DNA of 64,000 nucleotides, taken from assembly GCA_017434885.1 (NCBI GenBank), contig JAFSGE010000026.1, forward strand, positions 1 through 64,000, given 5' to 3'. This DNA is from Lachnospiraceae bacterium. GTDB taxonomy: Bacteria > Bacillota > Clostridia > Lachnospirales > Lachnospiraceae. Below the pieces are notes generated by a model. It was not told where the DNA came from and searched no databases. It saw nothing but the letters and a program-made list of their open reading frames with translations. The position numbers and the translations under genes were made by a program. Below are positions 28,460 to 31,038 of the stretch, one piece after another. Within the stretch, counting starts at the first letter, position 1, and every line of letters starts with the position of its first letter.

Positions 28460-28636
28460 GTGAATGAATCCTCCCTTCATAATTTTAATGAATTAAAGTA
28501 CTAAATCATTATACTTATCATATAGTATCATATGACTGATGTCAATTTCCAAATGATTAAAAGCAAATAGGAAAAAAGTTCGGTATACGACGCAAAGAGA
28601 GTAATAAAAATCAATAAAATTGATTAAATTCGCTCC

Positions 28637-28665
28637 TTGATAACATCAAGAAAGTATGATATGAT
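28637..28665 (+). promoter_or_regulatory. Promoter of the T-box leuA transcript
   Basis: TTGATA (28637-28642), a 17-base spacer and TATGAT (28660-28665). The expected start point near 28672 lies just before the T-box leader. Confidence 0.78.
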
Positions 28666-28692
28666 TTAATCCGTAAACAGAATAAGGTATAA

Positions 28693-28985
28693 AATGCGAT
28701 GAAGAGGAATAGTAGCCGCAAGCCGGAAATCAGAGAATTGCCGTTTGGTGCGAGGCAGTCAGAGGCAGATGGTGAACTCACCTTGGAGCAGCTTGCTGAA
28801 GACCATGCCGGAGATGAGGAAAGAGAAGCAGCGGTTGTGTAGGTTAAGACGGAGCATCCCGCCGTAGAAAGGGAAGGACATGACAGTGTCTGCAAAGAGC
28901 ATGGAATATCCATGAAGTAGAGTGGTACCGCGTAAAGATGAATTTGCGTCTCTATGAAGTGTAAAGCATTTCATAGGGACTTTTT
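28693..28985 (+). promoter_or_regulatory. T-box riboswitch (leucine) in front of leuA
   Basis: The leader has the typical opening GATGAAGAGGAATAGTAGCCG region, a specifier context GAA-CTC-ACC with CTC (leucine codon) at 28777-28779, and the conserved T-box AGTGGTACCGCG at 28921-28932. A terminator follows: 28948-28958 pairs with 28970-28980, then TTTTT. Uncharged tRNA-Leu(GAG) would stabilise the antiterminator and let leuA be transcribed. The type, specifier and downstream gene agree with each other. Confidence 0.95.
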
Positions 28986-29040: not shown

Positions 29041-31038
29041 ATGAATGTAGCACAGAAATACGGAAAATCTTATTTTATGCCCCCGGTGACAACTTACGAC
29101 TGGGTAAAGAAAGATACCATTGAGAAAGCACCTATCTGGTGCAGCGTTGACTTGCGTGACGGAAACCAGGCATTGATTGAGCCTATGAGCCTGGAAGAAA
29201 AGTTACAGTTTTTCGAGATGCTGGTAAAAATCGGTTTTAAAGAAATAGAAGTGGGATTCCCTGCAGCTTCCGAAACCGAATATAATTTTATCCGTGCATT
29301 GATTGAAAGAAACATGATTCCCGATGATGTGACCATTCAGGTACTGACACAGGCAAGAGAACATATTATCAAGAAGACCTTTGAAGCGGTAAAGGGAGCG
29401 CCCCGTGCAGTAATCCATCTGTACAATTCCACTTCCGTGGCGCAGAGAGAACAGGTTTTCAGAAAGAGCAAAGAAGAAGTAAAGCAGATTGCCATTGACG
29501 GAGCTGAGCTTTTAAAGAAACTGGCTGATGAGACAGACGGCAACTTCACTTTTGAATACAGTCCCGAGAGCTTCCCCGGTACGGAGGTTGACTATGCACT
29601 GGAAGTATGTAATGCAGTGTTGGATGTGTGGAAACCCGTAAAAGAAAACAAAGTAATTATCAATATTCCCACGACCGTACAGATTGCAATGCCTCATGTG
29701 TTTGCATCTCAGGTAGAATATTTCCACAAGAACTTAAAGTACAGGGATGCTGTAACTATCAGCGTACATCCTCACAATGACAGAGGCTGTGGTGTCAGCG
29801 ATGCAGAGCTTGGTGTTTTGGCAGGTGCAGACAGAGTGGAAGGTACCTTGTTCGGAAACGGTGAGAGAACAGGTAACGTGGATATTATTACGGTAGCCAT
29901 GAACATGATTTGTCATGGCGTAGAGTCAGGACTTGACTTTTCCAATATTTCAGAAATCCGTGAAACCTATGAGACATTAACAGGCATGAAGGTTTACGAG
30001 CGTACTCCTTATGCAGGCGATTTGGTATTTACCGCATTTTCCGGCTCCCATCAGGATGCCATTTCCAAGGGAATGGCCTGGTGGAACGAAGGAAAGAGCA
30101 ATGGCCGTTGGGATGTGCCTTATCTGCCTATTGACCCGCAGGATTTGGGACGCGAATATGAATCTGACGTTATCAGAATCAACAGCCAGTCCGGTAAAGG
30201 CGGTATTGCTTTTATCCTGAAGCAGAACTTTGGTATGTCTCTGCCTGACAAGATGAAGGAAGAAGTAGGATACCTGATGAAAGGTGTTTCTGACAAGAAG
30301 CACAGTGAACTGGCACCTTCCGATGTATATCAGATTTTCAAAGACACTTATATTGACCAGAGAGAAATCTTTAATATCCCTGAATGTCACTTCAAGCAGA
30401 TTGAGGGTGGTATCAGTGCAGAAGTAACCATTGAACAGGACAAAGAAAGACGTGTCATTGAGACAACAGGTAATGGTCGTCTTGACGCTGTCAGCAACGC
30501 AGTGAAGCTGTATTTCGGCATTAGCTATGAACTTTCCGTTTATGAGGAGCATGCGGTATCCCGCGGTTCTTCCTCCAAGGCAGCTACCTATGTAGGGATT
30601 GTGAAAGACGGAAAGATGTACTGGGGCGTTGGTATTGACGAGGATATTATCAAGAGTTCCATCGCCGCATTGGTATCAGCAGGGAATAAACTGGCACAAA
30701 ATGAGAATATTAAAGAAGGTAGAGAAGAACGTATTGTTGACATCATGAATTATGTGAAAAATCATTACAAGGATGTCACACTGGACGAATTGGCTGAGAA
30801 CTTTAATTTATCCAAGCCCTACCTTTCCAAATATATCAAAGAAAATGCGGGAATTACTTTCCAGGAGGCTGTAAAAAAAGCCAGAATGAAGAAGGCAAGA
30901 ACCATGTTAAAAGAGTCCAATCAGACAGTGGAAAGTATTGCGGCTTATGTAGGATATGAGAATGTAGAGCATTTTAACCGTTTGTTTAAGAAGTCCTATG
31001 GCATGACGCCTATTCAGTTCAGAAGAGAGAGCAGATAA
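29041..31038 (+). CDS. leuA: 2-isopropylmalate synthase fused to a C-terminal AraC-type DNA-binding domain
   Basis: A 665-residue fusion. Residues about 1-430 are a type 2 LeuA catalytic region ([59 protein letters not shown]); about 445-555 form the leucine-binding regulatory domain ([25 protein letters not shown]). Residues about 565-665 are a full AraC domain with two helix-turn-helix units ([40 protein letters not shown], ending TPIQFRRES). It makes 2-isopropylmalate from 2-oxoisovalerate and acetyl-CoA. I use ATG 29041, with GGAGG 8 bases upstream; ATG 29026 would add five residues. The reading frame is clean, so this is not a sequencing join. The domain may regulate genes in response to leucine. 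Confidence 0.95.

Follow-up and report, generated by a model that had tools for sequence, protein, structure and literature searches.

A 2-isopropylmalate synthase fused to an AraC-type DNA-binding domain as a probable regulator of its own gene in Lachnospiraceae

The joining of a biosynthetic enzyme to a DNA-binding domain in one gene raises the question of whether the enzyme also controls the genes of its own pathway. In this study, we have explored such a gene in a 64,000-nucleotide stretch of DNA from a Lachnospiraceae bacterium (the window), for which an earlier note had proposed an in-frame fusion of LeuA to an intact AraC-type domain, with a possible role in leucine-dependent regulation. 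The fusion itself is confirmed. A single open frame of 665 amino acids without inner stop (window positions 29041 to 31038, + strand) matches, each time over the cut-off, the Pfam families HMGL-like (residues 31-308), IPMS_D2 (327-394), LeuA_dimer (423-551), HTH_18 (584-662) and HTH_AraC (626-662). Residues 1-551 (29041..30693, +) are the 2-isopropylmalate synthase part, made of a TIM barrel, a linker and a leucine-binding dimerisation domain. They are followed by a short variable linker of low residue conservation at about residues 552-564 (30694..30732, +; mean commonest-residue fraction 0.42 for 552-565 vs 0.72-0.87 for the named domains) and by an AraC/XylS-type DNA-binding domain with two helix-turn-helix units at about residues 565-665 (30733..31035, +; HTH_18, 8.8e-22). 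The presence of all three enzyme families agrees with the view that residues 1-555 are a full LeuA including its leucine domain, and since unfused relatives stop 1-13 residues past the position of LeuA residue 549-551, the statement that a standard LeuA ends near residue 555 also holds. A scan of species genomes, with a reach of close relatives only, found the fusion in 17 of 17 further loci, with matches running from residue 1-6 to residue 661-665 at 69-96% identity. The junction is therefore not an accident of one assembly, and we rejected an assembly or frame artefact. A chance fusion without function was rejected as well, because the DNA face is conserved and a candidate operator is present.

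Both halves of the protein appear to be in working order. The LeuA part scores 799 bits against the PRK03739 LeuA subfamily; its closest solved structure is LeuA of M. tuberculosis (1sr9; also 3fig), with 43-44% identity in structural alignments, and a fold search with the whole model again returned only LeuA. The motifs LRDGNQ and GNGERTGN are found in 126/126 proteins and HPHNDRG in 118/126, corresponding to the DRE-TIM domain motifs RDGNQ, HxH and GNGERxGN. At the catalytic and leucine-site positions, which were taken from excerpts of PMC2704214, R39, H243, H245, E267, G272, G274, E275, R276, G278, N279 and H337 are conserved in all 88 aligned fused proteins, and G477, G479, L481, Y501, A505, S512, A514 and Y361 of the leucine site are invariant in 10 of 10. 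By the same excerpts, three positions differ from the M. tuberculosis enzyme (A536 is D482 here, A565 is S512 and V551 is L498). The LeuA_dimer domain is present (PF08502, 4.3e-26). As this is the one full-length LeuA match in the window's genome, the fused protein is, on sequence grounds, probably a working 2-isopropylmalate synthase.

In the C-terminal half, the HTH_18 match of 77.6 bits (cut-off 33.6) identifies the two helix-turn-helix units of the AraC/XylS family, and S596, K597, Y598, G604, F607, G638, Y639, E643, H644, F645, R647, F649 and P657 are each conserved at 95-100% in 88 sequences. An AlphaFold model places seven helices within residues 563-664, a block with pLDDT of 73-89; the model as a whole has a pLDDT of 69.7 and a pTM of 0.47, with a poor N-terminal part. 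Other AraC-type domains of the window's genome are at most 38% identical to the fused one. A loss of key AraC residues in homologues, which the earlier note had named as the result that would count against it, is clear in 1 of 88 aligned fused proteins, L052 of genome G240 (Y594E, K597A, E643A, R647Q and R661Q), in which much of the fold core remains; this locus has a T-box and is also without the operator.

The fusion is widespread among gut bacteria in the family Lachnospiraceae. Of 299 genomes of this family, 270 gave a LeuA match (E <= 1e-100), and the fusion was found in at least 69 of the 299, the window's included, in the loci read among the matches listed; L097 was counted although a contig end cuts its domain. 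Outside the family, frame lengths in 391 genomes of the class, followed by reading of the loci, gave fused LeuA in G509, G373 and G511. Genome G500 has a long open frame yet is unfused, and the long open frame of G639 was rejected as a fusion, as a stop and then leuC follow. A second, unfused LeuA, 49-52% identical, is present in G022, G108, G509 and G373. In G264, which shares the genus of the window's genome, the sole LeuA found is unfused and 50% identical (L260), and the two kinds of LeuA thus substitute for one another even inside one genus. A tree built from 125 LeuA sequences groups the fused rows in a single part, where 8 unfused and 2 split rows are also found, a pattern that is most simply read as a single gain, several losses and two splits. 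At the split loci, L033 (G061) and L109 (G078), the AraC domain is a separate overlapping frame after the leuA stop (119 codons in G061 and 117 in G078, stop to stop); in these metagenome-era assemblies the splits may be sequencing slips, chiefly that of L109, which lies beside a run of eight A. Because both split loci retain the operator, the separate domain may act in trans.

A candidate DNA site for the fused domain emerged when the upstream region of the window's leuA was aligned to those of six near relatives: a conserved AATCAATaaaATTGATT adjoins the promoter, and the refined matrix has the approximate consensus TTAAAAwAnATCAAtnAAAnTGATTAAATTT, directly upstream of the leuA promoter. The candidate operator of the window lies at 28602..28638 (+), with the core AATCAATAAAATTGATT at 28609-28625 and a matrix score of 42.5. 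Its half-sites may form a dyad (similarity 0.763) or a direct repeat of 22 bp (0.658), and in 71 sites core position 3 is C in 100% and core position 13 is G in 96%. With up to 3 mismatches, the pattern occurs in 63/81 held-out fused loci vs 3/35 unfused ones (Fisher 1.5e-12, kinship ignored), and with up to 2 mismatches in 42/81 vs 0/35. A matrix score of at least 8 is reached by 73 of the 89 fused rows (one genome supplies both L023 and L036), by both split loci, by none of 35 unfused loci and by none of 890 randomised sequences. Since fused loci served to train the matrix, the count for fused rows is in part circular, which does not apply to the held-out test or to the second sites.

Among the 89 fused rows, 16 score below 8. 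Two of these, L025 and L050, have less than 100 bp upstream, and a weaker version of the operator is seen by eye in L014, L030, L079, L091 and L094. The upstream region of leuA in G007 (L043) does contain a perfect match to the pattern, some 0.8 kb from the gene and outside the 600 bp scanned, and in the fused loci L038, L086 and L090 inspection of 260-600 bp by eye revealed no clear operator. When supported branches were used for independent contrasts, only 4 pairs were obtained, of which a mean of 3.5 were as expected and none opposite (p = 0.125 at best). Lineages without the domain also have no operator, those with the domain as a separate frame keep it, and it is again absent where the domain has decayed. 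In the genomes compared, the predicted operator thus follows whether the DNA-binding domain is present and intact.

The earlier note had suggested looking for sites near ilv and leu genes, and such sites are found at leuA, ilvH-ilvC, leuC and leuD-leuC. The window's genome has the pattern at two places with up to 3 mismatches, leuA and ilvH-ilvC (reversed-pattern control, 1). The second site is on contig 25 at 195821-195847, 68 nt before the start codon of ilvH, with ilvC next. It is kept in 4 of the 6 nearest relatives (L009, score 13.9; L021, 16.5; L010, 10.9; L011, 10.9) and is missing from the ilvH regions of the genomes of L012 and L013. By genome handle, the fused G682, G683 and G198 and the unfused G264 lack it. 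A direct look at ilvH, and not a blind scan, gave the sites of G680, G681 and G684 and a doubtful one in the fused G042; the G042 match at ilvH-ilvC (15.3) lies over a terminator-like hairpin without promoter geometry and was not counted. We also observed on contig 25 (L136) tandem genes for acetolactate synthase small subunits (994-1479 and 1596-2090), with an operator and promoter between them. In three other lineages, the pattern scan further gave sites at leuC in G207, G475, G638 and G516, all of one genus (scores 31.5-38.0), and in G216 (17.1), and a site in G202 (20.7) at a leuD-leuC-like pair whose matches are below the NCBIfam equivalog cut-offs and above the subfamily ones.

With up to 2 mismatches, 53 of 71 domain-carrying genomes (69 fused and 2 split; G137, G240 and G246 left out) were matched, with 59 matches and a reversed-pattern control of 8. 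The control of 31 unfused genomes gave 6 matches in 4 genomes, none at up to 1 mismatch, with a reversed-pattern control of 2. Two matches in unfused genomes reach 14.2 and 16.9, and the genes next to them were not recognised as belonging to leucine synthesis; a score of 14-17 thus proves nothing by itself, and position at pathway genes is decisive. In the domain-carrying genomes, in which second matches were all read at up to 2 mismatches and in part at 3, the second sites read with scores above 10 are all at branched-chain amino-acid genes, and the other second matches (L170-L174, L228, L233, L235 and L237-L242) score 5.0 at best. A broad regulon was rejected: among 30 fused genomes, with leuC found in 29 and 30 loci scanned, G207 alone has a site, the leuC regions of the 28 others, the window's included, having none.

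A second level of control is visible in the window. The T-box that the earlier note had placed in front of leuA is borne out as a leader with a CUC (leucine) specifier at 28690..28956 (+; Rfam RF00230, 98.4 bits); we take the CTC within GAA-CTC-ACC to be at the specifier position. With up to 3 mismatches (25/630 randomised sequences matched), the T-box motif occurs in 23/35 unfused, 23/89 fused and 0/2 split loci, from which we infer that the fusion may replace the leucine T-box. From operator to gene the distance is 82-245 nt in 52 loci without a T-box and 384-532 nt in 20 loci with one; L116, at 96 nt, has a doubtful 3-mismatch T-box match only. In the window's strain both T-box and operator are present.

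Based on these results, the regulatory role that had been proposed for the fusion gains support from an operator before leuA that appears to follow the domain, together with the predicted sites at ilv and leu genes. We consider it highly likely that LeuA-AraC is a leucine enzyme that also regulates the gene encoding it and the pathway in which it acts, with activation at low leucine as the most likely mode and with bound leucine both inhibiting the enzyme and weakening activation. In this model, the LeuA dimer would offer two AraC-type domains that bind the dyad beside the -35 box of leuA and, in some lineages, dyads at ilvH-ilvC, leuC or leuD-leuC; operator binding and the placing of a dimer on the dyad are predictions from sequence. 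At low leucine, the fused protein would most likely activate leuA and the pathway promoters. Leucine binding in LeuA's allosteric domain, some 12 residues ahead of the first helix of the AraC part, would inhibit catalysis and weaken activation, and in the window's strain the leucine T-box would add its control at the RNA level. The regulator thus probably senses leucine through the allosteric domain of LeuA and probably acts as an activator. A wider version, in which one leucine-induced change switches both active site and promoter, and in which many lineages swapped the leuA T-box for this switch and spread it to ilv and leuCD, strikes us as evenly balanced between true and false.

Our preference as to the direction of control draws on the geometry of the promoter. 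The predicted leuA promoter (28637..28665, +) has a -35 box TTGATA at 28637-28642, a 17-bp spacer and an extended -10 TGaTATGAT at 28657-28665, with the -10 box TATGAT at 28660-28665. In 65 of 75 loci, 48 nt separate the first base of the operator core from that of the extended -10 (TGnTAnnnT), and its TG is present in 71/74. A dyad upstream of the -35 box, at constant spacing from the -10, is the usual position of an activator, and AraC itself has a site that adjoins the -35 box. Activation is preferred because the dyad centre is some 55 nt ahead of the predicted start, where activators typically bind. It is rather unlikely that leucine-bound LeuA-AraC instead represses and turns leuA off, as the dyad keeps this constant spacing and spans about -70 to -40; still, the operator adjoins the -35 box (28637), end-product control is a simple logic, and the window's boxes are fair (TTGATA/TATGAT with extended TG). 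Indeed, -35 boxes match at 4 or 5 of 6 positions in 39/74 loci vs about 14% at random places; they are thus not unusually poor and dependence on an activator is not forced. The effector might also be a substrate or product (ketoisovalerate, acetyl-CoA or 2-isopropylmalate), with the enzyme reporting flux, as yeast Leu3 is a regulator that responds to isopropylmalate. The active site is kept in full, the T-box of the window's strain already senses leucine charging, and among the second targets is ilvH-ilvC, which precedes the leucine branch; we nonetheless hold this reading to be somewhat unlikely, since the DNA-binding domain is joined to a leucine-binding domain in which known site positions are kept.

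Two further explanations would take the operator away from the fused domain. That a different regulator uses it, the fused domain being passive, is very improbable given its distribution (73/89 fused and 2/2 split loci vs 0/35 unfused, 8 of the latter inside the fused part of the tree) and its loss in L052, where DNA-contact residues have decayed. More improbable still, to the point of being nearly negligible, is that the block is a mere A/T-rich UP element of the promoter: it is indeed A/T rich and upstream of the -35, but a core C in 100% and a core G in 96% of 71 sites, and the absence of the block from unfused relatives, speak against this.

How does LeuA-AraC, as a probable leucine-responsive activator, compare with known systems? 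M. tuberculosis LeuA (PRK03739, 1sr9, 3fig) has the same enzyme, active site and leucine-binding domain, but like the unfused relatives it ends past the leucine domain, without a DNA-binding domain. The AraC/XylS regulators AraC, Rns and RhaS likewise carry a C-terminal domain of two helix-turn-helix units behind a ligand and dimerisation domain, although their sensor is a small ligand-binding domain whereas that of LeuA-AraC is a complete biosynthetic enzyme; the specific site at target promoters that marks this family is seen here in purely comparative evidence. PutA, BirA and NadR are DNA-binding enzymes that control genes of their own pathways. As would be the case for LeuA-AraC, enzyme and DNA-binding regulator are one protein, described as multidomain and multifunction in the excerpt of PMC4307903, but enzyme, fold and DNA-binding domain all differ, and only in LeuA-AraC is an AraC domain C-terminal on a feedback-inhibited enzyme of a committed step. 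With both modules intact in one chain, and with candidate targets found, LeuA-AraC may be a trigger enzyme, in which a ligand would couple catalysis to gene control. Leucine T-box leaders, which precede leuA in the window's strain as well as in many relatives that lack the fusion, act at the RNA level, unlike the fusion. Among titles and the starts of abstracts, with most subscription papers beyond its scope, a literature search found no LeuA-AraC protein, and no leuA appears within the main text of the clostridium start-site map PMC5171806, as far as excerpted.

If this reading is true, the enzyme of a committed step would be a regulator of its own pathway, with one ligand site serving both feedback inhibition and gene control, and the name 2-isopropylmalate synthase by itself would conceal the regulator. 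The lineages in which the domain is missing, split or decayed are available as natural controls. The case also suggests that an RNA switch (the T-box) gave way to a protein-level one at leuA, and the protein could be a ready-made leucine-responsive regulator.

Other features of the leuA upstream regions were also seen. A second small dyad, CTTGATaacATCAAG, lies at window positions 28636-28650, over the -35 box; it is also present in the nearest relatives and is broken in L012. In L009, at about -135 upstream of leuA, both promoter-proximal dyads are kept, while the T-box is mostly gone and a terminator-like end is left. Finally, L093 has an operator-like palindrome at about -52 of leuA, downstream of the likely -10, which is perhaps a hairpin or a site in a repressor-type position.
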